A DNA stretch of 64,000 nt from Bacteroidales bacterium (lineage in GTDB: Bacteria > Bacteroidota > Bacteroidia > Bacteroidales > Marinilabiliaceae): NCBI GenBank assembly GCA_024401395.1, contig JAKSLD010000004.1, positions 62,001 to 126,000 on the forward strand, read 5' to 3'. This document shows, one piece after another, positions 12,584 to 25,699 of this stretch. Numbering within the stretch: position 1 is the first letter of the stretch; each line of letters starts with the position of its first letter. The notes beneath the pieces are model-generated. The model was not told the origin of the DNA. It did not search any database and was given only the letters and a program-made list of their open reading frames with translations. The translations under genes and the position numbers were made by a program.

Positions 12584-12655
12584 GCGGGTGGAGAAAGTCG
12601 TTGTGGCAGAGGGAGGTCGAATTCACTTTGTGTGTACTTTGTGGTATAATGGAAG

Positions 12656-12905
12656 TATAAGGCTGCATGCAGTCTTTGTCAATGGAGGGTAGCTGCTGGT
12701 ACAATGGAAGTACCATATTATTACAAATTGATAAGAGAGCACGGGAAAGAGCTGATGGAGGTCTGGTTGCAGAGTCGACGAGAGAAGGGGCTTTGACAAT
12801 AGAGGGGTAGATATGCGAGTATTCAAGGAGAGGGGTATGTTTTTCTGGGTGAAGTTTGAGAGTGTGGATGAGTATATGGGGGGGGTGGAGAGGTTGGCGG
12901 GGTAG
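12656..12905 (+). pseudogene. decayed, internally deleted copy of the 25097-25576 gene with its leader
   Basis: Positions 12656-12714 match 24931-24989 with one mismatch (the leader), then the sequence jumps to material matching 25386-25576, the last third of the intact gene. About 400 bases, covering the rest of the leader and two thirds of the coding region, are missing, and the remaining reading frame is broken. The last 49 bases belong also to the 911-bp direct repeat that begins at 12857. Confidence 0.75.
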
Positions 12906-12944
12906 AAATGCAGAAGAATTACTATTTGATTTGAATTTTTTTCT

Positions 12945-12952
12945 TACATTTG
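12945..12952 (+). promoter_or_regulatory. -7 element of the tolC promoter, copy 1
   Basis: TACATTTG fits TAnnTTTG. The same element is at 20580-20587 in copy 2. A transcript from here would have a leader of about 180 bases before the tolC ATG. Confidence 0.55.
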
Positions 12953-13068
12953 CGGTCGGTTTTGGATTTCGTAATTAATAGTGCTCGAAATTCTTCTTCT
13001 GATTTTTCCCTGATCTGAGAGGTTTGTAGTGCATTGTGGCAAACGTGTGGTTTGTCCGAGCCTAGATG

Positions 13069-13120
13069 GTTCATTTATTCGTATTTCCGGGGGAAGGAAT
13101 AAATATGACGAATAATGAAC
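13069..13120 (+). promoter_or_regulatory. leader hairpin before tolC, copy 1
   Basis: GTTCATTTATTCGT (13069-13082) pairs with ACGAATAATGAAC (13108-13120) apart from one bulged T. The interior ATTTCC/GGAAGGAAT adds an alternative inner pairing. The hairpin ends 24 bases before the preferred ATG and also contains the alternative ATG at 13115, so it could be an operator or could block translation. It is repeated at 20704-20755. Confidence 0.5.
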
Positions 13121-13144
13121 TGTAATAATACGTCTATAATCTTA

Positions 13145-13767
13145 ATGAACAAACACAAGTTTCTTTGTGCTCTGGCTGTCACGATGATAGTCGGAGCAAG
13201 TTGCTGTTGTGTGCCTATGTATGCGCAGCCAAGAATGAGTCTTCAGTCGCTTTTTGCCATGGCTGACCAGCAGAGTCAGCACATCAAGGTCAGTGAAGAG
13301 GCATTGAAGGCAGCAGAAGAAGGGGTATCATCGGCGAAATCAGCATTGCTTCCAAGTGTAGAATTGAGTGTGCAAGGTTCCTACACCGGCAATGCATTCC
13401 TTATGTCGCGAGGTTTTTCGACCAGAGGTGCAACGGAATACATCGTTCCGGGTCTTGGGCCTCAAAATGTGCAGAATGGCAAGCAACCAACACCGCATTG
13501 GGGCAACAGTTTCACGGCCCAGGTGAGTCAGGTAATCTACGCTGGTGGCGCTATCCGCTCAGGAATAGAGATGTCAAAACTGGGTTGCCAGATGGCAGAA
13601 CTTGATGTGGAGAAGAATCGTCAGGAGGTGCGATTTCTGCTTACCGGCTATTACCTTGACCTTTACAAATTGCAAAACCAGTCGCAGGTAATAGCGAAGA
13701 ACATTGAACTAACGGAAAGGGTTATCGAACAGATGAAAGTTCGCAGAGAACAGGGAACTGTACTGAA
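13145..13767 (+). pseudogene. 5' fragment of the tolC-type gene (duplicate)
   Basis: This is identical in translation to residues 1-207 of the intact outer-membrane efflux protein at 20780-22165, including the signal peptide. It keeps the promoter and leader. At 13768 the sequence changes to the antisense strand of the truncated ion-channel gene, and the frame runs on through unrelated codons to a stop at 14017. The product would lack the second half of the TolC barrel/helical repeat and should not be functional. Confidence 0.88.
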
Positions 13768-14094
13768 AAAACGAAACACCCTCAATGTTCTCAACGTCAA
13801 AAGGAACGACACATCGGCACCTTCGACAGGCAAAAAAGACATCACAATAGAAGGCAAAGCTATAATGACCAATGTACCATCCAACCTATTCCATCCGTCG
13901 GACCAATACCCCTTGAAGCCAAGTTGTATATGCTTCAATACCATCTCTATGATGAAGAAAATATTAAAAAGCATATCAAGAATATCCAGCATACTATTAT
14001 TGACGCCACATTCCTGAATATAGATAGTCAACGAGTTAAGAATGACTATAAAAATAACTATCTTTTCGTTGGTGAATAATCTACTTGCATTCAT
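13768..14094 (-). pseudogene. voltage-sensor-type ion channel, 3' end cut off at the repeat junction
   Basis: The N-terminal part of an ion-transport (PF00520-type) channel is present: S1 (EKIVIFIVILNSLTIYI), S2 (DMLFNIFFIIEMVLK), S3 (RLDGTLVIIALPSIV) and the Arg-spaced S4 (LRTLRVFRFF). The S5, pore and S6 parts are absent because the gene ends at 13767/13768, where the tolC duplicate begins; the frame then reads antisense tolC. The start is set at the ATG at 14094, one base after the upstream stop, rather than 14112. It is the last gene of the minus-strand cluster. Confidence 0.8.
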
Positions 14095-14095
14095 G

Positions 14096-14446
14096 TCACT
14101 CAAAAATCTCAAAGAATTTTATAAGGCTATCTAACATATCACCGTAAAAGTCAGCTATAAAGCCAAAGAATTTGCCAATAACATGCCATAGTCTACAGAT
14201 ATAAGGCCATAGGAACACCAGAAATCTGATTACCCCATAAAGCATCACCAAAATACCGGCTATCAAGACAGGCGCAAGTAGCCATTGTCCAAAACTAGCC
14301 TTCCCTTTTCTGATGTCATTTATAGTATTTTGAGTAAGCACAAGATATCTACCTATGACCGTCAATATTCCTAAAAATATATTCCCGAAAAACTCAGCAA
14401 GTACAGTTCCTACAAACCCACCTAATAAATCAATAAGACATCCCAT
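14096..14446 (-). CDS. small membrane protein, 116 aa, unknown
   Basis: I do not recognise a family. The protein has a Gly-rich hydrophobic N-terminus (GGFVGTVLAEFFGNIFLGILTV), a second strong membrane segment (LLAPVLIAGILVMLYGVI) and an aromatic, amphipathic C-terminus. The ATG overlaps the stop of the amidohydrolase (TAATG), so it is translationally coupled in the minus-strand cluster. Together with the channel gene that follows, it may handle transport or immunity; this is inferred from position. Confidence 0.65.
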   Translation of the reverse strand: MGCLIDLLGGFVGTVLAEFFGNIFLGILTVIGRYLVLTQNTINDIRKGKASFGQWLLAPVLIAGILVMLYGVIRFLVFLWPYICRLWHVIGKFFGFIADFYGDMLDSLIKFFEIFE

Positions 14447-15183
14447 TATAAAAATAATTTTTCAAAATTAACGTGACTGACCTTATCCCATTGTTGTTCA
14501 CTCATAACAGATTGGGTATCCAATATGATTTTACGGTAGAGCGCAGACATATCTTGCCCAGGGTAGAAATAATCATGAAGTGGATAGTCAGTTCCAAACA
14601 ACACTCTGTCTTCAAAACCATTTATTATTAGTTCTGATATACATTCTGCAGGAGTGAATGCAGTGTCTGCATAACAATTCGGACACTCTTCTAGAACTTT
14701 CAATGCTTGGTCTATAGGTCTAGAGTGTGCTATGATACACGTCACATCCTGATTACGCTTAATAATGTCAAGATAAGACTCTGAATCACTTTCTGGACGT
14801 CCACCAGTATGAAAAAGCAACGGCAACCTCAATTCACGAGCTACATCAATTACATATTCTATTTCATCTTCTTCCCATTGCTCGAAATAGCCATGAATCT
14901 TAAGACATCGCCAATTAACACCGCATTCAACTGACTCTTTCAGAGTACTATTTGCAAGCATTCGACGCACAACCCACAATACAGGAACGAGTTTGTTCCC
15001 CGCCAATCCTGAAAGCTCTTTCATTTCTTCAATAGGGTTAGCTTTCTCTGACGGCATACATGTGCTCGTTGACGAAACTGCATATTTATCTACACATAGC
15101 GACTCGAAGAAATTCACTATGTCGTTTGGCGATGTATATAGTTCTCTGAACTGTCCGACATGTACATGTGCGTCACAAATCAT
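14446..15183 (-). CDS. amidohydrolase-family metal-dependent hydrolase
   Basis: This is a 245-residue TIM-barrel hydrolase of the amidohydrolase (PF04909-like) superfamily. It has the N-terminal metal motif DAHVHVG, a strand-5 type His in LLFHTGG, a His in IIAHSRP and the C-terminal Asp in LFGTDYPLHDYF, so the metal site looks complete. The ATG lies inside the end of the 55-aa Cys protein gene (11-base overlap), and its stop overlaps the next start. In this cluster it may hydrolyse the modified peptide or a leader, but the substrate is unknown. Confidence 0.8.
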   Translation of the reverse strand: MICDAHVHVGQFRELYTSPNDIVNFFESLCVDKYAVSSTSTCMPSEKANPIEEMKELSGLAGNKLVPVLWVVRRMLANSTLKESVECGVNWRCLKIHGYFEQWEEDEIEYVIDVARELRLPLLFHTGGRPESDSESYLDIIKRNQDVTCIIAHSRPIDQALKVLEECPNCYADTAFTPAECISELIINGFEDRVLFGTDYPLHDYFYPGQDMSALYRKIILDTQSVMSEQQWDKVSHVNFEKLFL

Positions 15184-15340
15184 CTTCTTTTTTTTGCTTC
15201 ACCCTCAGGTCAATTTGTTTTACCAATTTACAGAACTGAATGCTTATTGGACCGTCATGTGGCTCGACAACAAGCATCTTCTTGCACAAATCACGCACTT
15301 CACAAGTCTTACATTCCGTGTTTTCGATTTTCTCTAGCAT
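15173..15340 (-). CDS. 55-aa four-Cys mini-protein with a SPASM-like half motif
   Basis: A small frame runs from the ATG at 15340 to the TGA at 15173. It overlaps the radical SAM stop by 7 bases and the amidohydrolase start by 11 bases, which strongly suggests translational coupling. Cysteines are at residues 10, 13, 19 and 37. The segment ECKTCEVRDLC closely resembles ECLDCEARDFC in the C-terminal SPASM domain of the neighbouring radical SAM enzyme, so it may bind an Fe-S cluster or Zn. The rest is charged and Lys-rich. No named family was recognised. Confidence 0.72.
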   Translation of the reverse strand: MLEKIENTECKTCEVRDLCKKMLVVEPHDGPISIQFCKLVKQIDLRVKQKKEDDL

Positions 15341-16818
15341 GTCTCGTCATCCTTTTTGTTGAAGTCTACTCCAAACTTCTCTATCACAAGACGCTTTGTC
15401 AAGAATGCCACATCGCAAAAGTGTTTGTTAATCTTGTACATATCGCCACCACTTTCGTTATAGTTTCTAACAAGGCAACGAGCGCAGAAATCTCTAGCCT
15501 CACAATCGAGACATTCTGGGAAGTCTGCCTGCGTAATCTTGCGCAATTCCTTTAAGCGCTCGCTCTTTTCCCATATCTCAACTAGCGGTTGCTCATTGAC
15601 ATTGCCCAACACCATACTTTGCCATCCTGCACATGGATATACATCACCATTGGCTGTTATGCAACAGTTGTCGTAACCAACGCCGCAAAGAGGTTGCTTC
15701 TTATAGCGTTCAATGTCAAATTTTATTTCCTCGCTTATAGGCCTTTGTTTTAGTGTCTTGTCTCTATATTGCAAATCATAATCCATAATATCACGCAAGA
15801 GTTCTTCTGTTTCTTCGATAGATATGCGATTAGCAAGATTGTTTGTGTTAAAATCCGCCTGAGCCATCATGATGAAGTCTGTCTGTGCCTTTATCTTAAG
15901 GCTACGAGCATAATGGAGAACGTCTTTGTAGCCCTTCCGGTTAGCTTTCATAATTGGACATGAAATCTGTACCGGCACATCTGCTGCTACAAGTTTTTCT
16001 ATTGCTGCCTTTGACTTTATGAATGACCCCTTTACGGTAGTTATTAAATCATGTATTTGCGGTTCCATGCTATAAAGCGACACCTGTATAAGAGAAACAT
16101 TCAACTCACGCAACTGTTCTACTTGTTCATCTCTTAACGCTATGAGATTCGACAATATAGTGACCATCATATCCTTTTCGCGAGCATAGCGAACTAGTTC
16201 GATGAGGTCCTTGTGCAAAAATGCTTCTCCGCCAGAAAAGGTCACATGCAAGCCTCCCATATCTGCCAATTGGTCAATAAGATTCTTGACCTTTGATGTG
16301 GGCATATCAAAACCTGCATTCTTTTTCTCATTAGGGATGTAACAGTGAATGCACCGTTCATTGCAACGACTTGATAGTTCAAATTGTATATTTGATATCA
16401 GCGGACGTCCTTGCACTTCTTCGAGGAAGAAGTCCTGAGTATTCTCACTGATTGGTGTTTCAGTTTCTTGATAAAAGTCAGACGCCAAAGTCTTTGGATT
16501 GTCCATAGAATACGAGAACGTCATGTCATTTGCGTCCAACTCTTCTGGAGTATCACCTAGCATTATGAACTTGTCTCTTGCTAGACTCTGAGCAAATTCC
16601 ATAAAGTCCGCTTTAAGCGTTGCAAAGTCCACTCCTTTATATATGGTAAGCAAATGCTCTACAACATCATCTACACTCTTAGGTTCACGACTTATCTCAC
16701 GTAACAAATCAGCACCAAAACTATCGTAGGTCCTATCATGGCGCGTGAGCTGATTTTTTATATATCCGTAATTCTCAGTAGTACGGATAAAGCTATTTTT
16801 GCTTTGTTTAACAAACAT
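15334..16818 (-). CDS. PqqD-like / radical SAM / SPASM peptide-modifying enzyme
   Basis: The protein has 494 residues. Residues about 15-95 look like a PqqD-type peptide-recognition element (NQLTRHDRTYDSFG, SVDDVVEHLL). The radical SAM core has the CxxxCxxC cluster in RCNERCIHCYIP (Cys about 151, 155, 158) and the GGE motif FSGGEAFLHKD. The C-terminal SPASM domain has many Cys residues (CGVGYDNCC, DVYPCAGW, CLDCEARDFCARC, HFC). This architecture is typical of RiPP maturases that form thioether or C-C links. The start at 16818 lies four bases after the upstream TGA; a longer start at 16869 would overlap that gene. Confidence 0.9.
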   Translation of the reverse strand: MFVKQSKNSFIRTTENYGYIKNQLTRHDRTYDSFGADLLREISREPKSVDDVVEHLLTIYKGVDFATLKADFMEFAQSLARDKFIMLGDTPEELDANDMTFSYSMDNPKTLASDFYQETETPISENTQDFFLEEVQGRPLISNIQFELSSRCNERCIHCYIPNEKKNAGFDMPTSKVKNLIDQLADMGGLHVTFSGGEAFLHKDLIELVRYAREKDMMVTILSNLIALRDEQVEQLRELNVSLIQVSLYSMEPQIHDLITTVKGSFIKSKAAIEKLVAADVPVQISCPIMKANRKGYKDVLHYARSLKIKAQTDFIMMAQADFNTNNLANRISIEETEELLRDIMDYDLQYRDKTLKQRPISEEIKFDIERYKKQPLCGVGYDNCCITANGDVYPCAGWQSMVLGNVNEQPLVEIWEKSERLKELRKITQADFPECLDCEARDFCARCLVRNYNESGGDMYKINKHFCDVAFLTKRLVIEKFGVDFNKKDDETC

Positions 16819-16822
16819 CGAA

Positions 16823-17032
16823 TCAGTCTTTTTGAATGAATGTATAATATTCTTCAATAAATTCTGCATTAACTAGCCCCTTTTCTAATGTGATGTATTG
16901 ACGATGTTCAGAATTGACGCAATTTTCGTCATCACATTTCGTTTCGCCAATAATATTTAATGCCAATGGCCATTGATCTGTATCGTTGGGCATGTTCGCA
17001 GAATTTTTCAAATAAACTGTTTGTGGATACAT
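16823..17032 (-). CDS. 69-aa protein upstream of the radical SAM enzyme, unknown
   Basis: The ATG at 17032 opens a 69-residue frame ending four bases before the preferred radical SAM start, so the two are probably translated together. The protein is acidic, with one CDDENC pair of Cys residues and a C-terminal helix rich in Glu and Tyr. It is not recognised. It could be a second substrate, a small chaperone or an accessory recognition protein. Confidence 0.55.
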   Translation of the reverse strand: MYPQTVYLKNSANMPNDTDQWPLALNIIGETKCDDENCVNSEHRQYITLEKGLVNAEFIEEYYTFIQKD

Positions 17033-17073
17033 AATGTCTTGAACTTTTATGTTTATTATTTAGTTTGTATATG

Positions 17074-17108
17074 TAATAAAGAGGCCGACGCAATAAATGG
17101 TCAGCCTC
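17074..17108 (-). terminator. hairpin terminator/attenuator directly after the candidate precursor gene
   Basis: On the minus strand GAGGCTGAC pairs with GTCGGCCTC (nine pairs, one G-U) around a 10-base loop, followed by TTTATT. The hairpin starts six bases after the stop codon at 17114 and lies before the 69-aa and radical SAM genes. Partial termination here would give more peptide transcript than enzyme transcript. Confidence 0.75.
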
Positions 17109-17113
17109 ACTTT

Positions 17114-17308
17114 TCACGCTGTAATTTCACATTGTCGACAACCTTCTGGGGGTGCAATGCTTTGTCCGTTTTTAGTTGCACCACCTATAAGAGGTCTAGG
17201 TGTGTGCTGAGGACATCCAGCAGCATACGAACCAGTAGGAAGGTTCTTGGCAATCATCTTAGCTTTCTTATATTCTTTCATAGCTTTGTCGATTACGTAA
17301 TTTAACAT
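17114..17308 (-). CDS. candidate RiPP precursor peptide, 64 aa
   Basis: From the ATG at 17308 the product is a 64-residue peptide. Residues 1-22 form a Lys-rich helix suitable as a leader. From LPTGSYAAGCP onward the sequence becomes Gly/Pro/Thr-rich with three Cys (32, 57, 60) and ends in EGCRQCEITA, like a core region. An AAGGA Shine-Dalgarno-like box lies five bases before this ATG, which favours it over the in-frame TTG at 17374 (86 aa). It sits two genes above a radical SAM/SPASM enzyme and is followed at once by a terminator. I do not recognise the family, and the modification is unknown. Confidence 0.7.
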   Translation of the reverse strand: MLNYVIDKAMKEYKKAKMIAKNLPTGSYAAGCPQHTPRPLIGGATKNGQSIAPPEGCRQCEITA

Positions 17309-17378
17309 CTTTATCCTTTCAAGCGACTCGATTTCTTCTGCTCTTGAGGTTCTGGCAGCCAAGAGTTTCTGCAATGAT

Positions 17379-17594
17379 TTAACATTCTATTATACTTGTT
17401 ATTTCTTTTGCCATTGGCACATAACGATCCTTTATCCACTGGATAAATGCCAAACGTTTAGGATCTGAAACACCTAGCACTAAGGGATCAAAACAGCAAA
17501 ACATTTCTCTTAATTCTTCTCTCGTAAATGGAACGTTTATATATTCGTCCCAAACACCTCCGTCTATACGGTCGTAATAAACATGATATTTCAT
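17379..17594 (-). CDS. 71-aa protein of the radical SAM cluster, unknown
   Basis: This is a small mixed alpha/beta protein with no signal peptide and no recognised domain. Notable parts are an N-terminal strand (KYHVYYDRIDGG), a CC pair in REMFCCFDP and a C-terminal Cys as last residue. It ends 70 bases before the preferred precursor ATG and starts 25 bases after the stop of the coiled-coil gene, all on the same strand. It may be a cluster-specific accessory protein. Confidence 0.55.
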   Translation of the reverse strand: MKYHVYYDRIDGGVWDEYINVPFTREELREMFCCFDPLVLGVSDPKRLAFIQWIKDRYVPMAKEITSIIEC

Positions 17595-17618
17595 AATGAT
17601 ATTTTAATTTAAAATGTA

Positions 17619-18569
17619 CTATGCTGTAGCCCAAACAAAGAATATGATTATCAACACTAATATCAAGGCTAATGTGCCGAAGATGTACCCCAACCAGCCG
17701 TCTGCTACAAAGAACAGATACGCCAATAGTACTCCAGCAACTATCCAAAGTATCTTGTTGATTTTTTTATGCTTTGCCTCTTTGAGTATAGCTTCTTCTT
17801 TGCGTTTTTCAGCTGCCTTCTCTTCCTTGATACGCTGCTCTTCTTTTTGCGCCTTTTTTATAGCGGCTTTTTTCGCTTTTTCTTCTGCTAATCGTTCTTC
17901 TTCCTCCTTTTTTGCCTTGTAAATGTTTTGGATTTCTTCGTTGTCCTTGAATTTGTTGTTGGCAACATCTTCTAGTACTCGTGCATGATTTTTGTCCAAT
18001 ATTAAGAGCGTAGATGATGGATCGGATTCTTTTACATTTTTAATGTCGTCAGGGAGTTCTTGGTTTGACTCTTCGCATAGATGTTTTATTTTCGCAATGC
18101 TTTTGTATCTAAATTTGGAATGTTCTTTTATGTTCTTTTCGTTTATGGCTAGAGCGGAGAGAAATTCATCCGCATCTCCATTCGTTATTTTCTCGCTAAT
18201 TTCTAAGTTCTCATTCGCTATCCTTTTACATTCGCTAAGAAAAGCATCACATTCTTTGTCGTATTCGTCTAGATATTTTTCAAGCTTGTTACAGTATTCA
18301 GTATATGCCGCTTCTTCCTCTTCATGTTTGCGACGTTCTTTCTCTTCCGCCTCCATTTCCAGACGGTTTCTCTCATCTCGTTTCGCTTGGTATTCCGCAT
18401 TTCTTTCAGCCTGTACCTCTTCGTCAATCTGCTGAAAGAATTTACAATCCAATACCTCTTGCTCGACTTTGTGGCAGTGCGTGAATCCTCCGTCCAAAAA
18501 TGGACACCTTTTTTTATAAGGGCATTTGTCTGCCATTGCGTATTTTAATGCACTATCTAATATCCCCAT
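17619..18569 (-). CDS. Cys-cluster / coiled-coil / two-TM protein, first gene of the cluster
   Basis: This 316-residue protein has an unusual order. A short N-terminal Cys/His patch (Cys 16, 22, 32, 42 in KCPYKKRCPF, FTHCHK and LDC) could bind Zn or an Fe-S cluster. A very long Glu/Lys/Arg-rich coiled coil fills about residues 50-265. Two hydrophobic segments at the C-terminus (LWIVAGVLLAYLFFVADG and FGTLALILVLIIIFFVW) should anchor it in the membrane with the coiled coil in the cytoplasm. It could tether the pathway to the membrane. No family name can be given. Confidence 0.62.
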   Translation of the reverse strand: MGILDSALKYAMADKCPYKKRCPFLDGGFTHCHKVEQEVLDCKFFQQIDEEVQAERNAEYQAKRDERNRLEMEAEEKERRKHEEEEAAYTEYCNKLEKYLDEYDKECDAFLSECKRIANENLEISEKITNGDADEFLSALAINEKNIKEHSKFRYKSIAKIKHLCEESNQELPDDIKNVKESDPSSTLLILDKNHARVLEDVANNKFKDNEEIQNIYKAKKEEEERLAEEKAKKAAIKKAQKEEQRIKEEKAAEKRKEEAILKEAKHKKINKILWIVAGVLLAYLFFVADGWLGYIFGTLALILVLIIIFFVWATA

Positions 18570-18741: not shown

Positions 18742-19695
18742 TCAAAATGGATTTTGGGACATGGGCAACGACATACAATCATTGCTGTATTCCAAAGACA
18801 ACGCATCACTATTTCCCTGCTCCGCGGCTTTCGTATACCACTCCACAGCCTTTGCGTAGTTTTGTTCTACACCTTTGCCATGTTCATAACAATGTCCTAA
18901 TTCATATTGAGCTATTGCCAGTCCCTGATTTGCGGCCTTGCTATACCACTCAAAGGCTTTGTTCTCGTCTTTCTCTACACCATATCCATGACCATAAGAA
19001 TATGCCAAATAGTATTGCGCGCTGGCATCATCCTGTTCGGCGGCCTTGACATACCACTCCACAGCCTTAGCATAATCTTGCTCTACGCCTTGCCCATGAC
19101 CATAACAATATCCTATATGCATTTGCGCACGTACCTGACCATGTTCTGCGGCCTTGCCATACCACTCCAAGGCCTTGACGTAGTCTTGCTCCACGCCATT
19201 CCCCTTGTAATAACAGTTTCCCAATGCATTTTGCGCCTCAGGCGAGTCCTCGTTGGCCGCCGCTTCCAAACATTGTATGGCATGTTTTGCATCAGCGACA
19301 CACCCATTCTTACCATCCAACAGATTGCTTCCCATCTCTGCCAACTTCAACAGCGACTCTTGTTCTCCCAGTTTATGCTTCTCTAAGCACGCATCAACAA
19401 GCCATGTGCATAGAATATCATTCATCAAACCCTTCGAAGCTGCAGATATATACAGGCCGATAGCCTTGTCAATATCTTTGTCTGTTCCATGACCGGTGTG
19501 ATAACAATTGCCCAAATTAGCTATTGAATAGTTGCAGTCTCGTTCTGCTGCTAAGGAAAACAATCGATAAGCTTTATCATAGTCCTGCTCGCATCCGTTT
19601 GTCCCTGTATAGAAAGACCATCCCCAATAGTTGAGGGTCAAAACCTCTTCATTTGATGCATTATCTATTAGCTTATTGTATTCTAGTTCAGTCAT
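18742..19695 (-). CDS. Sel1-like repeat protein
   Basis: The protein is made of tandem Sel1/TPR-like repeats of about 36 residues, with consensus like A-x-x-x-LG-x-CY-x-G-x-GVEQDYAKAVEWYxKAAEQG. At least five are clear from about residue 50 to the C-terminus. Such proteins act as scaffolds in protein complexes. There is no signal peptide when the ATG at 19695 is used; the in-frame GTG at 19716 adds seven residues. It lies upstream of the candidate RiPP genes on the same strand but 172 bases away. A functional link is unproven. Confidence 0.85.
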   Translation of the reverse strand: MTELEYNKLIDNASNEEVLTLNYWGWSFYTGTNGCEQDYDKAYRLFSLAAERDCNYSIANLGNCYHTGHGTDKDIDKAIGLYISAASKGLMNDILCTWLVDACLEKHKLGEQESLLKLAEMGSNLLDGKNGCVADAKHAIQCLEAAANEDSPEAQNALGNCYYKGNGVEQDYVKALEWYGKAAEHGQVRAQMHIGYCYGHGQGVEQDYAKAVEWYVKAAEQDDASAQYYLAYSYGHGYGVEKDENKAFEWYSKAANQGLAIAQYELGHCYEHGKGVEQNYAKAVEWYTKAAEQGNSDALSLEYSNDCMSLPMSQNPF

Positions 19696-19809
19696 GATTG
19701 TCTTGTATAAAAACACTAAAGATGTTAACCAATGTAAAATTACAGCATATAAACATATTTATACTGTAGGTAGAGTAATAGACATTCTTACTTGTACGTC
19801 AAGTGTTAT

Positions 19810-20040
19810 TTACAAATCTTCTTCCTTCATCTCCCTCTCCAGCTCTTCACCCAATTCTTTCAACAGATTCTTACCCAAGGCTTTAGATATCCGCACCAAC
19901 AATGACACACTCATGTCGTCACGGTCGTATATGTCATATATGTTCACACGATCGCACCCTATCTTGTCTGCAAGCCACTTCGGTTTGCGCTCGATTTTCT
20001 CCAATTCTTGCTTTATAGTTTCGCCGATATGCAGTTTCAT
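19810..20040 (-). CDS. XRE-family helix-turn-helix regulator
   Basis: From the ATG at 20040 this is a 76-residue DNA-binding protein with the usual XRE pattern: MKLHIGETIKQELE, then KPKWLADKIGCDRVNIYDIYDR (HTH), then LLVRISKALGKNL, and an acidic tail. Small stand-alone XRE proteins of this type are common in Bacteroidota and often sit in mobile or defence regions. It is divergent from nothing nearby. It is 115 bases upstream of the Sel1 gene and could regulate the minus-strand genes. Confidence 0.82.
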   Translation of the reverse strand: MKLHIGETIKQELEKIERKPKWLADKIGCDRVNIYDIYDRDDMSVSLLVRISKALGKNLLKELGEELEREMKEEDL

Positions 20041-20491
20041 AACCAAAAACAATTCATCCTTCGGCTCCTGTTGGACAGTAGATTTTTTATAAAACGAAAA
20101 AAGGCGTGGAACCATATTGTTACTCGTCCCACAGCCAGAGGTCTTCGCTACCTATCAGTCAAGAACGAGCAACGCAGACACCACACCGTGCTGTATACAT
20201 ACATAGCCACATGGTCCATGCTAAAGCACAAACCACCATGGCGCATATAATACACACCCATGGACGCCTATCGTTGCCTGGTCTTTTGACTGATAATGAA
20301 AGTTGCGAAGTTTCTGACTGTCAAAACCCAAGCGTCAATATACGCCTACAAAATATATTTCATCCCTTGCCACCCGATTACGGTGTGGTTCAGGACGCGA
20401 CAAATTTAATACTTTTTAATTATAACACAACACGCCAGACATCCTTCTCGTCAAAAACAAATACATCCCCCCACCATACATGCGTAGAGAC
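20041..20491. other. gene-free stretch at the right boundary of the repeat-bounded segment
   Basis: No convincing gene, RNA or clear hairpin was found. Frames here have no recognisable protein features. The sequence ends exactly where copy 2 of the 911-bp repeat begins. Confidence 0.6.
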
Positions 20492-20579
20492 TGAGAGTGT
20501 GGATGAGTATATGGGGGCTTTGGAGAGGTTGGCGGGGTAGAAATGCAGAAGAATTACTATTTGATTTGTTTTTTTTTCT

Positions 20580-20587
20580 TACATTTG
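20580..20587 (+). promoter_or_regulatory. -7 element of the efflux operon promoter
   Basis: TACATTTG fits TAnnTTTG, about 190 bases before the preferred tolC ATG. It would drive the tolC-hlyD-MFS operon. Confidence 0.55.
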
Positions 20588-20703
20588 CGGTCGGTTTTGG
20601 ATTTCGTAATTAATAGTGCTCGAAATTCTTCTTCTGATTTTTCCCTGATCTGAGAGGTTTGTAGTGCATTGTGGCAAACGTGTGGTTTGTCCGAGCCTAG
20701 ATG

Positions 20704-20755
20704 GTTCATTTATTCGTATTTCCGGGGGAAGGAATAAATATGACGAATAATGAAC
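20704..20755 (+). promoter_or_regulatory. leader hairpin before the intact tolC gene
   Basis: This has the same 13-bp stem with one bulge as at 13069-13120. It lies between promoter and start codon and is a likely site of drug- or regulator-responsive control. Confidence 0.5.
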
Positions 20756-20779
20756 TGTAATAATACGTCTATAATCTTA

Positions 20780-22165
20780 ATGAACAAACACAAGTTTCTT
20801 TGTGCTCTGGCTGTCACGATGATAGTCGGAGCAAGTTGCTGTTGTGTGCCTATGTATGCGCAGCCAAGAATGAGTCTTCAGTCGCTTTTTGCCATGGCTG
20901 ACCAGCAGAGTCAGCACATCAAGGTCAGTGAAGAGGCATTGAAGGCAGCAGAAGAAGGGGTATCATCGGCGAAATCAGCATTGCTTCCAAGTGTAGAATT
21001 GAGTGTGCAAGGTTCCTACACCGGCAATGCATTCCTTATGTCGCGAGGTTTTTCGACCAGAGGTGCAACGGAATACATCGTTCCGGGTCTTGGGCCTCAA
21101 AATGTGCAGAATGGCAAGCAACCAACACCGCATTGGGGCAACAGTTTCACGGCCCAGGTGAGTCAGGTAATCTACGCTGGTGGCGCTATCCGCTCAGGAA
21201 TAGAGATGTCAAAACTGGGTTGCCAGATGGCAGAACTTGATGTGGAGAAGAATCGTCAGGAGGTGCGATTTCTGCTTACCGGCTATTACCTTGACCTTTA
21301 CAAATTGCAAAACCAGTCGCAGGTAATAGCGAAGAACATTGAACTAACGGAAAGGGTTATCGAACAGATGAAAGTTCGCAGAGAACAGGGAACTGTACTG
21401 AATAATGACATAACCCGGTACGATATGCAACTGCAGAGCCTGCTTCTTGCCAAGACACAATTGGATGATTCGCAGAAGATAATACGTCATCAGATAGCCA
21501 CAATGATCCACTTACCAGAGGGGAAAGATTTTGAAGTGGACGCGAATGCTCTCGAAGAAGAAGGTATGGCACTCAAGGCACTCACTTCCGAGGAGTTGTG
21601 GCAACAGTCGGCATCCGAAAACAACATAGACATCCGTCAGGCTTCACTTGCTACGGAAATATCCGAACAAAAGATAAAGAACACACGTGCGTCATCACTT
21701 CCAACGGTGGCTATTGTTGCCGAAAACAACCTATTTGGTCCGTATACCTCTGACCTGATTCCGAAGAATGCCAATGTCAACGTGTGGTTTGTTGGAATAG
21801 GAGTAAAGTACAACCTGTCAAGTCTTTGGAAGAACAATCACGACATACGTAAGGCAAAGTACGAGAGTACTCAAGTGCGCGAAAATGTGCAGATAGTGCG
21901 AGAAGGCATAGAAAATGGGGTACAGGCTAACTACATCAATCTGTTGACCAGTTCGGTGGTGGTAAGTACACAAGAGAAGCAAGTGGAGCTTGCAGAGCAA
22001 AACTATACGGTAGTCAAGAGTCGTTACGACAATGATCTCACATTGCTTACAGATATGCTAGATGCTTCAAACATGAAACTCTCTGCCGACATGGCATTGG
22101 TAAATGCCCGTATCGATATGCTCTACAACTATTTCAAACTAAAATACATGACAAATACACTATAA
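20780..22165 (+). CDS. TolC-type outer-membrane efflux protein
   Basis: This is an outer-membrane channel of tripartite efflux pumps. From the ATG at 20780 it has 461 residues with a signal peptide (MNKHKFLCALAVTMIVGASCCC...YAQP). Two related helical/barrel halves typical of the OEP family (PF02321) can be seen, with long heptad-like segments (SQHIKVSEEALKAAEEG; LAEQNYTVVKSRYDNDL). A start at 20750 adds ten residues and would spoil the leader. Two bases separate it from the membrane-fusion gene. Its first 207 codons are duplicated upstream. Confidence 0.92.
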   Translation: MNKHKFLCALAVTMIVGASCCCVPMYAQPRMSLQSLFAMADQQSQHIKVSEEALKAAEEGVSSAKSALLPSVELSVQGSYTGNAFLMSRGFSTRGATEYIVPGLGPQNVQNGKQPTPHWGNSFTAQVSQVIYAGGAIRSGIEMSKLGCQMAELDVEKNRQEVRFLLTGYYLDLYKLQNQSQVIAKNIELTERVIEQMKVRREQGTVLNNDITRYDMQLQSLLLAKTQLDDSQKIIRHQIATMIHLPEGKDFEVDANALEEEGMALKALTSEELWQQSASENNIDIRQASLATEISEQKIKNTRASSLPTVAIVAENNLFGPYTSDLIPKNANVNVWFVGIGVKYNLSSLWKNNHDIRKAKYESTQVRENVQIVREGIENGVQANYINLLTSSVVVSTQEKQVELAEQNYTVVKSRYDNDLTLLTDMLDASNMKLSADMALVNARIDMLYNYFKLKYMTNTL

Positions 22166-24867: not shown

Positions 24868-24930
24868 TAACGTAAGAAAGCTACCATCATAAGGGGAAAG
24901 ATAGAAGAGCAAGAAAAGGAAGGTGGGGAA

Positions 24931-24989
24931 TATAAGGCTGCGTGCAGTCTTTGTCAATGGAGGGTAGCTGCTGGTACAATGGAAGTACC
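24931..24989. repeat. leader repeat of the basic-protein gene family
   Basis: This 59-base segment is nearly identical (one mismatch seen) to 12656-12714. It lies upstream of the intact gene at 25097 and shows that the leader is duplicated together with the gene. Confidence 0.8.
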
Positions 24990-25096: not shown

Positions 25097-25576
25097 ATGG
25101 GAAGAGTAACCATTCGTAAGAAATGCATTACGATTGCGCGCAAGGCGATGCGATCGGACAGTACTGCCAGAGTGGACGGCAAGAGTATCTTTATCAAGCG
25201 ATATCCGGGGCATAACTATAAGCTTATCATGGTTCACGTTACAAAGAAGCAACGTGCTGTGAGAGATATGTTTGCGGATGCCAATGTGCTTGCCAAAGAG
25301 GACATGAAGAGATGGAACAGAGTGAGACATTGGGAGAGGTACGCACGGCAGCATAAGAAGCTGGGGGCATACAGAGCGGCGGTATCATATTACTATAAGA
25401 TGATAAGAGAGCATGGGAAAGAGTTGAGGGAGATCAGGTTGCAGAGTCGAAGAGAGAAGGGCTTTGACAATAGAGGGGTAGATATGCGAGTTTTCAAGGA
25501 GAAGAATGTGTTTTTCTGGGTGAAGTTTGAGAGTGTGGATGAGTATATGGGGGCTTTGGAGAGGTTGGCGGGGTAG
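25097..25576 (+). CDS. small basic protein of unknown function, member of a local repeat family
   Basis: The 159-residue product is very basic and has no signal peptide or membrane segment. It has an N-terminal part rich in Lys/Arg and beta strands (VTIRKKCITIARKAMR, KSIFIKRYPG), a helical Arg/Lys/Tyr-rich middle (RWNRVRHWERYARQHKKLG) and a C-terminal FFWVKFESVDEYMGALERL. Nucleic-acid binding is plausible from charge alone. Relics of the gene lie at 12656-12905 and 20492-20540, so it is repeated on both sides of the efflux operon and may be part of a mobile or recombining unit. No family was recognised. Confidence 0.65.
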   Translation: MGRVTIRKKCITIARKAMRSDSTARVDGKSIFIKRYPGHNYKLIMVHVTKKQRAVRDMFADANVLAKEDMKRWNRVRHWERYARQHKKLGAYRAAVSYYYKMIREHGKELREIRLQSRREKGFDNRGVDMRVFKEKNVFFWVKFESVDEYMGALERLAG

Positions 25577-25699
25577 AAGAGAGAAGAAACCACATCCCTT
25601 CAAATAGGAATGTAATAGGGAAGTAATGTTACGTTAAGGCTCGGAGAAAAAGATTGGAGATATTGTCATTAGAAAATTGTCTATGTTATAGAATTTTAA

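Follow-up and report, generated by a model that had tools for sequence, protein, structure and literature searches.

The subject of this study is a locus in a 64,000-nucleotide stretch of DNA, referred to throughout as the window, from the genome of a Bacteroidales bacterium of the Marinilabiliaceae (assembly GCA_024401395.1, 3.3 Mb in 47 contigs; contig JAKSLD010000004.1, positions 62,001 to 126,000 of the forward strand). An earlier note, made from the letters alone, had recognized on the minus strand, between 14.1 and 18.6 kb, a possible locus for a ribosomally synthesized and post-translationally modified peptide (RiPP) with a radical S-adenosylmethionine (radical SAM)/SPASM enzyme, and the genes that it listed are present on that one strand. 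The locus is more unusual than it was first described: with a probability that we put at roughly 60%, it belongs to a RiPP system in which the processing part is constant and the core of the peptide is exchangeable. The conserved unit consists of three genes, which encode a precursor whose N-terminal segment ends in SYAAGCP, an enzyme with PqqD-like, radical SAM and SPASM domains, and an amidohydrolase. The core that follows this segment looks, together with the small gene or genes behind it (the cargo), like a cassette exchanged by recombination.

The precursor peptide and its processing enzymes

The precursor gene of the window (17114..17281, on the minus strand like all the window genes described below) encodes a peptide of 55 amino acids. 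The earlier note had read it as a 64-residue Cys peptide; the precursor itself is real, but its start is probably the internal ATG at 17281 (MKEYKKAK...), because the relatives start there. Its constant part, MKEYKKAKMIAKNLPTGSYAAGCP (17210..17281), has 19-23 of 24 residues identical in comparisons with five relatives and is followed by a variable core of 31 residues (17117..17209) with the C-terminal end CRQCEITA, in which the C-terminal pair of cysteines is kept. Homologous peptides adjoin the enzyme in the relatives: in nearly all the loci that were found through the radical SAM enzyme, the pattern MKxYxKAxxVAKNxPxGSYAAGCP...CxxC[ED]R recurs beside it, and precursor length across the family is 33-55 residues, with MKxYxKPxLIAKNxPxGSYAAGCP...CxxC[ED]R as the overall form. 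The precursor is far beyond chance, since a family profile detects it in its own genome at an expectation value (E) of 5.8e-18 and matches 19 of the 20 genomes of these loci (E 5e-21 to 4e-14; one match in most genomes, two or three in three of them), and since searches with the precursor only recover the same enzyme.

Conservation is unevenly distributed along the peptide. Among 54 distinct precursors, 50 have the GCP, and a pair of cysteines close to the C-terminus is retained in 52; the stretch after the GCP ranges from 14 to 31 residues in the 50 GCP-bearing precursors, and its sequence varies too. When the loop of the window precursor is aligned with those of five relatives whose radical SAM enzymes are 70-81% identical to its own, only 1-4 residues of 12-23 are identical. 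The same is seen in 14 pairs of loci (designated here by L numbers) in which the precursor up to the GCP is 79-96% identical, the radical SAM enzyme is 70-98% identical and the loop is not conserved; for example, L016 and L017 share 483/494 residues of the enzyme, 22/24 of the leader part and 3/15 of the loop, and the corresponding values for L034 and L035 are 451/487, 22/23 and 1/10. A short gene for the precursor is fixed beside that of the maturase, and a conserved leader is separate from a variable core, as is expected of a RiPP system. When 22 precursors were compared with the known precursor families in NCBIfam, E was never lower than 0.073. Two loci are of some interest in their own right. 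In L116 (3594-3719) the precursor is broken around the Gly-Cys codons and the first cargo open reading frame (ORF) has 47 residues versus 72 in L110, with no sign of shortening in the second cargo gene or the enzymes; L108 (G997) has an intact precursor with a 93-aa ORF behind it, and no radical SAM gene of this family was found in its genome at E<=1e-60.

The maturase of the window (15334..16818, 494 aa) is probably best read from 16818 (MFVKQSKN...), because the first 17 residues of the longer, 511-residue reading are without counterpart in 20 relatives. Pfam recognizes the Radical_SAM (E 3.4e-24) and SPASM (E 1.3e-13) domains and, at the N-terminus, the PqqD-like domain PF05402 (E 1.3e-5, 25.8 bits versus a cut-off of 23.4). 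The cysteines C169, C173 and C176 of the CxxxCxxC motif and the SPASM cysteines C395, C413, C453, C456, C462, C465 and C485 are invariant in 21 sequences. The predicted structure, whose mean predicted local distance difference test score (pLDDT) is 84, is closest to SkfB and SuiB, followed by 5why (a sactipeptide-biosynthesis entry) and anSME. The CxxxCxxC and SPASM cysteines and the N-terminal PqqD-like/RiPP recognition element domain are those of a predicted radical SAM/SPASM peptide maturase. The central proposal of the earlier note, a RiPP locus with such an enzyme, is thus borne out: the precursor is tied to the maturase, its domains are confirmed by Pfam and the relatives keep the linkage.

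The known families of such enzymes among those listed do not accommodate it. The radical SAM enzymes score far below all the curated cut-offs among the NCBIfam models listed, that is, the best 25 of 83 families for the window enzyme, above the broad domain models, and the families at E<=1e-25 in a further comparison of the enzymes; the best score of the window enzyme is 147 of 500 bits. Because its scores lie so far below the cut-offs, we rejected assignment to a known sactipeptide class (AlbA 93 of 850, SkfB 81 of 300 bits for these sactipeptide/ranthipeptide models) or to the heme type (AhbD, NirJ); the scores against StsB (99 of 625 bits) and PapB (63 of 340 bits) likewise fall short of the curated values. 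The earlier note had found the set-up unfamiliar, and this agrees with the lack of a curated family model among those listed. A second, divergent radical SAM gene lies beside the main one in L034, L035, L037, L117, L120-L123, L125 and L126, and also in L101, L105, L110 and L116.

The third conserved gene (14446..15183) encodes a 245-aa enzyme of the amidohydrolase superfamily (PF04909, E 5.9e-12). Its predicted model (pLDDT 95.9) has a fold that resembles ACMSD and other amidohydrolases, and all of 18 sequences compared share residues H6, H8, K95, H125, H153 and D199; on the strength of this model and these residues, it is very likely an active metal enzyme. We take H6, H8, H125, H153 and D199 to be the HxH, the later His and the Asp of the metal site of the superfamily. 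In bottromycin biosynthesis, the amidohydrolase PurAH removes the follower peptide (PMC10885120, in the part of the paper available).

A scan with the radical SAM enzyme, with one genome per species, yielded 23 loci, or 24 with the window (L002 and L025 are one locus and were counted once). These come from Bacteroidales and other Bacteroidota metagenome-assembled genomes (MAGs), Fibrimonas/Fibrimonadales, Opitutales, Akkermansia, Victivallaceae/Lentisphaeria, one Competibacteraceae MAG and another Pseudomonadota MAG, and the three-gene unit is spread over several phyla. All three genes occur together in 19 of the 24. The amidohydrolase was not seen in the stretches of L030 and L032, and the precursor is not on the contigs of L027, L033 and L038; the genomes of L027 and L038 hold one on another contig, that of L033 does not. 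Around the precursor hits 29 regions were fetched (3 from genomes already given by the radical SAM scan), and 23 contain all three genes; L118, L122 and L124 are without the amidohydrolase and L102, L108 and L119 without the radical SAM gene, some of them at contig ends. The frame of the radical SAM gene is interrupted or split in L103 and L030. Gene order can differ, with the precursor after the radical SAM gene in L023 and the amidohydrolase before the precursor in L104.

The gene cluster is rare. A search with the precursor alignment found 2 convincing cases in 393 genomes of the order (five weak Bacteroidales hits of the 7 reported, E 0.003-0.009, were treated as chance), and within the window's own family 1 of 71 genomes, the window itself. 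At E<=1e-4, precursor-only searches were positive in 8/197 genomes of the class of L034's genome, 8/250 of the family of L017's, 18/167 of the phylum of L030's and 3/286 of the class of L027's. They gave 25 new genomes, of which 23 have the radical SAM gene in the fetched region, one has it on another contig and one has none at E<=1e-60. So patchy a spread, with one positive genome in 71 of the family, suggests that the window's lineage acquired the genes horizontally. A single scan of viral contigs with the radical SAM enzyme found no relative.

The boundary of the replaced segment

The evidence for exchange comes from the DNA of the 31 loci that bear cargo, among which all 63 pairs with a radical SAM identity of at least 80% were compared. 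In 59 of the 63, the left block of similarity breaks off close to where the GCP codons end, at -11 to +7 nt (the 9 breaks at -11 all involve the broken L116, whose anchor is approximate). The right block resumes near the start of a radical SAM gene, which in the Lentisphaeria is the first of two; in L103, with its interrupted frame, it does so no more than ~165 nt ahead of the main open frame. Four pairs depart from this pattern: L112/L113 and L110/L116, in which the whole cassette is common, L105/L110 (+74) and L106/L112 (+102). When the window is compared with L016, L017, L018 and L019, similarity ends each time at -1, the last base of the constant part.

The most telling pairs are those with long flanks. 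L106 and L113, from the Fibrobacterota (the phylum of the Fibrimonadales locus L030), are 95.2% identical over 5,073 bp that reach as far as the final base of the GCP codons (-1); there is then no match over 1.2 and 0.7 kb, after which 3,816 bp are aligned at 88.0%. The pair L107/L112 breaks in the same way. For L105/L115, 478 bp are 95.2% identical up to -1 and the cassette is without match; on the right side, the radical SAM region is 77.6% identical and the next 1,992 bp are 94.7% identical, so that the pair can be read as a replaced segment inside conserved flanks. In the cargo-bearing loci, then, the core and the gene or genes between precursor and radical SAM gene are replaced between otherwise similar loci. 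Exchange of a mature part and its neighbouring gene or genes between constant regions is the arrangement of bacteriocin and immunity exchange, and by sequence comparison the present loci appear to share it.

In the window, the cassette looks like the 31-aa core plus the gene for a 69-aa protein (16823..17032), which occupies the slot between precursor and maturase, ends 4 nt before the radical SAM start and may encode the cognate partner of the core. The earlier note had made the conservation of the small proteins next to the enzyme its own test, and here it did not fare well: at a threshold of E<=0.05, nothing in the 24 related loci (23 distinct) matches the 55-, 69- or 116-aa protein. A single homologue of the 71-aa protein turned up, in L017 (E 3.8e-5; a minus-strand hit in L022, E 0.047, is at chance level), and the 316-aa protein is matched in L017 (E 1.3e-8) and L016 (E 2e-5). 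Its whole set of partners is not one conserved system, as only the precursor, the radical SAM enzyme and the amidohydrolase are conserved. The 69-aa gene is meaningful in a different respect, as the occupant of a slot whose gene content differs by locus.

Cargo genes and rival explanations

Among 46 loci with both precursor and radical SAM gene, 31 have an ORF of at least 45 aa in the slot that follows the precursor (those of L037 being doubtful). The content, number and length of the cargo genes differ from locus to locus, and the matches listed for the 47 cargo ORFs include at least 10 between loci at E<=0.01, in 8 locus pairs. Where they can be compared, the cargo genes mostly appear to be under purifying selection: the rates of nonsynonymous (dN) and synonymous (dS) change are 0.155 and 0.98, and 0.25 and 1.55, for L110/L116, and 0.154 and 0.67 for L034/L035. 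L112 and L113 have both cargo genes in common, and their cores are identical at 17 of 18 residues. We had also considered a strict covariation of core and cargo, for which there are too few common cassettes (one direction of each comparison listed), and a common Tyr-Asn-Ser motif in the cores of the two loci with 8xMP cargo (L034, L126), which was dropped because, by reading, other cores of that clade have similar residues.

Under the reading that we prefer, the PqqD-like domain would bind the leader of the precursor, and the radical SAM enzyme may crosslink the invariant frame of SYAAGCP and CxxCE, with Cys the most likely site of linkage; trimming or further modification of the product could fall to the amidohydrolase. 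Homologous recombination in the leader block and the radical SAM region would swap the cassette. The cassette gene is most likely, though here we are less sure, a partner matched to the core, either an immunity protein or a binding partner, and lineages would come to differ in the specificity of their peptides with their enzymes in common. More tentatively, and at rather less than even odds, we suggest that the system is to RiPPs what tip-swapping is to toxins. Recombination at a set codon within the precursor gene would then swap, on a constant chassis found in several phyla, the hypervariable loop of a crosslinked peptide and its matched partner gene, and so set the recognition or immunity specificity of each lineage.

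Several observations weigh against an exchangeable core with a constant processing part. In 15 of the 46 loci with precursor and radical SAM gene there is no cargo ORF of at least 45 aa in the slot, and a partner in this position is therefore not obligatory. The 63 pairs are not independent: 11 Fibrobacterota loci account for 51 of them, and Bacteroidales and Lentisphaeria for the remaining 12. In one pair only, L112/L113, are an intact core and its cargo inherited together, and with dN 0.03 and dS 0.055 (dN/dS about 0.55) its cargo offers weak evidence of constraint; for the cargo of L034/L126, dS is saturated. Conversely, L034/L035 and, weakly, L021/L022 have a homologous first cargo gene with different cores, so that a strict one-to-one pairing of core and cargo is not supported. 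L030 and L124 are without the amidohydrolase in the fetched stretch. Finally, in a set of 100 of the 110 listed neighbouring ORFs from 14 loci, there is no exporter family among the 25 commonest of the 126 Pfam families found, which is unusual for a secreted peptide.

A rather unlikely explanation of the slot is that its genes are core-specific adaptors, that is, chaperones for the maturase, rather than immunity proteins or targets. Their position would suit such a role, since the final cargo gene stops no more than 10 nt from the radical SAM start in 12 of the 25 measurable loci and no more than 60 nt from it in 21, directly upstream of the enzyme; moreover, unrelated small proteins upstream of the SPASM enzyme in Bacteroidota graspetide loci were proposed to be PqqD-like auxiliaries (PMC8939145, in the part available). 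The maturase, however, already has a PqqD-like domain, some of the cargo proteins are large or membrane-bound (8xMP, FRG and SH3 domains), and a third of the loci (the 15 of 46) do without cargo.

We regard as quite improbable an intracellular product that would serve cargo effectors of the conflict or phage-defence type as ligand, sensor or antitoxin-like peptide. The lack of an exporter among the commonest neighbouring families speaks for it, as does the finding that protein kinases are the commonest neighbouring domain (6 of the 100 ORFs). The cargo itself was searched with Pfam and PADLOC as a set of 41 of the 47 ORFs, from which two ORFs of L113, two of L116 and two of the doubtful L037 were omitted; few match Pfam, with two hits to the 8xMP membrane family, one each to FRG, SH3 and the NusA N-terminal domain and some weak ones besides, and one protein matches the PADLOC candidate family PDC-S15 (E 6.4e-45). 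But most of the cargo is small and without any match, one strong hit in 41 proteins to a candidate defence family is thin evidence, and the kinases have no fixed position.

That the sharp break reflects divergence only, with an unconstrained core and downstream DNA and with cargo as chance insertions in a hot spot, is very improbable. Between the compact loci L026 and L028 the DNA can be aligned right across the core and the loop nonetheless differs, and loops therefore drift by point change too; the surroundings of the loci are variable as well. Neutral drift, however, would leave alignable DNA between flanks that are 95% identical over 5 kb (L106/L113); the cassettes differ in gene content, number and length, the Cys positions persist in the core, and several cargo genes have dN well below dS. 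A peptide-derived redox cofactor system of the pyrroloquinoline quinone or mycofactocin kind, which would account for a PqqD-radical SAM-SPASM enzyme and a hydrolase with no exporter seen, is highly improbable, for the window enzyme reaches 113 bits with the PqqE model and 98 bits with that of the mycofactocin maturase, far below the curated cut-offs of 381 and 265, and a hypervariable core would not be expected in a cofactor precursor.

The exchangeable-core system can be set beside several known ones. Like the SPASM maturases SkfB and SuiB, of the sactipeptide, ranthipeptide or streptide kind, the window enzyme combines an N-terminal domain of the leader-binding type with a radical SAM core and SPASM; these two are the top hits of its model in a fold search, and in both kinds a Cys-bearing precursor gene adjoins. 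Unlike them, the present system has a constant amidohydrolase, exchanges its core with neighbouring genes and reaches no listed curated NCBIfam model. The peptides of the pneumococcal blp system are not known to be modified. In the available part of a study of that system (PMC4860687), blp peptides have a leader and a variable mature part, as here; gene content varies between conserved regions, recombination is proposed as the driver and whole groups of bacteriocins are thought to be exchanged. The blp peptides differ in being of the double-glycine type and exported by an ABC transporter (PMC4860687, same part), whereas the present system has one radical SAM-linked precursor whose reading frame is cut at the junction of leader and core, with no exporter seen. 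The tips of Rhs and contact-dependent inhibition (CDI) toxins offer another parallel, for their variable C-terminal part is swapped at a set boundary along with the following gene. Those toxins are large secreted proteins; here there is a short peptide, predicted to be modified, whose partner may be an immunity protein. We know of no exchange of the core together with downstream genes in the prochlorosins or other hypervariable-core lanthipeptides, whose chemistry is also different; they do have a constant leader, a promiscuous enzyme and a variable core (PMC10783134, in the part available). With ACMSD and the PF04909 superfamily, the window amidohydrolase shares the predicted fold and the invariant metal-site residues, but it is a short form (245 aa) fixed to a RiPP maturase.

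Surroundings of the locus and its wider meaning

A 55-aa Cys protein of the locus (15173..15340), which is not conserved, contains CKTCEVRDLC, which by eye looks like the tail of the SPASM domain, CLDCEARDFC; an accessory 116-aa membrane protein (14096..14446) is not conserved either. Upstream of the precursor lie the genes for an accessory 71-aa protein (17379..17594), whose L017 homologue has the same position, and for a 316-aa protein (17619..18569) with a Cys motif, a coiled coil and C-terminal transmembrane segments, whose homologues in L017 and L016 are also upstream of the precursor and which is linked, via L016, to a protein of L019. The channel that the earlier note counted among the members (13663..14112) is probably outside the system: the ORF is chimeric, its C-terminal part being the antisense of a 911-bp repeat with its edge at 13767, and it is therefore probably a truncated neighbouring gene that reads into the repeat.

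This direct repeat, 99.45% identical between its copies (window 12857-13767 and 20492-21402), brackets the island and holds the 5' part of a tolC-like gene (so named by inspection of the protein rather than by a family search), truncated in the left copy. The bracketing suggests that the island arrived by recombination next to tolC; an assembly fault is less likely. Against 14 other genomes of the genus, alignment of the tolC DNA gave only an element of 49-54 bp, in two genomes, in which this start of the neighbouring repeat is 100% identical. A 268-bp element (window 12651-12918, 24927-24989 and 25382-25588) has 22 full or partial matches in its own genome, itself included. Between the RiPP genes and the right copy of the repeat (18742-20115) are a Sel1-repeat protein and a small helix-turn-helix-like protein, the latter with a homologue in L023.

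Among the relatives, protein-kinase-like genes lie within several kb of L016 and L019 (domain confirmed) and of L020, L021, L022, L034 and L037 (by similarity). L003 (2774-2878) and L004 (3061-3165), from two genomes of the same order with a distant radical SAM family, encode downstream a conserved peptide of 34 residues, MKKNLKI.K.STT.TM.NCP..SE..CG..YR, which may be another RiPP. A 132-aa protein of YSGRYTNSSDILYTFDGKH repeats follows the amidohydrolase in L033 (2297-2695) and L036 (10699-11097), and a near-identical short repeat array in L028 (3253-4375), which reads in frame as VLIPFFREIFQT, looks like a candidate CRISPR array.

A published description of this family was not found in the open-licence literature. 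There, YAAGCP or SYAAGC was not found among the best 5 of 1,388 papers that contain the motif or the words radical SAM, a search in which papers with the motif but without those words could be hidden; PMC10885120 alone was found for an amidohydrolase together with a radical SAM/SPASM RiPP, and the available parts of PMC10352776, PMC8326336, PMC4289311 and PMC8939145 mention neither AGCP nor an amidohydrolase. We thus have a family of precursor and maturase for which no curated model was found and in which a hypervariable loop is carried on a constant frame, and this suggests an enzyme that is tolerant of many cores. Because the boundary of exchange is sharp, it yields a testable prediction of which small gene pairs with which core, and such a prediction offers a way to learn what is done by peptides with targets that are not guessable from sequence.

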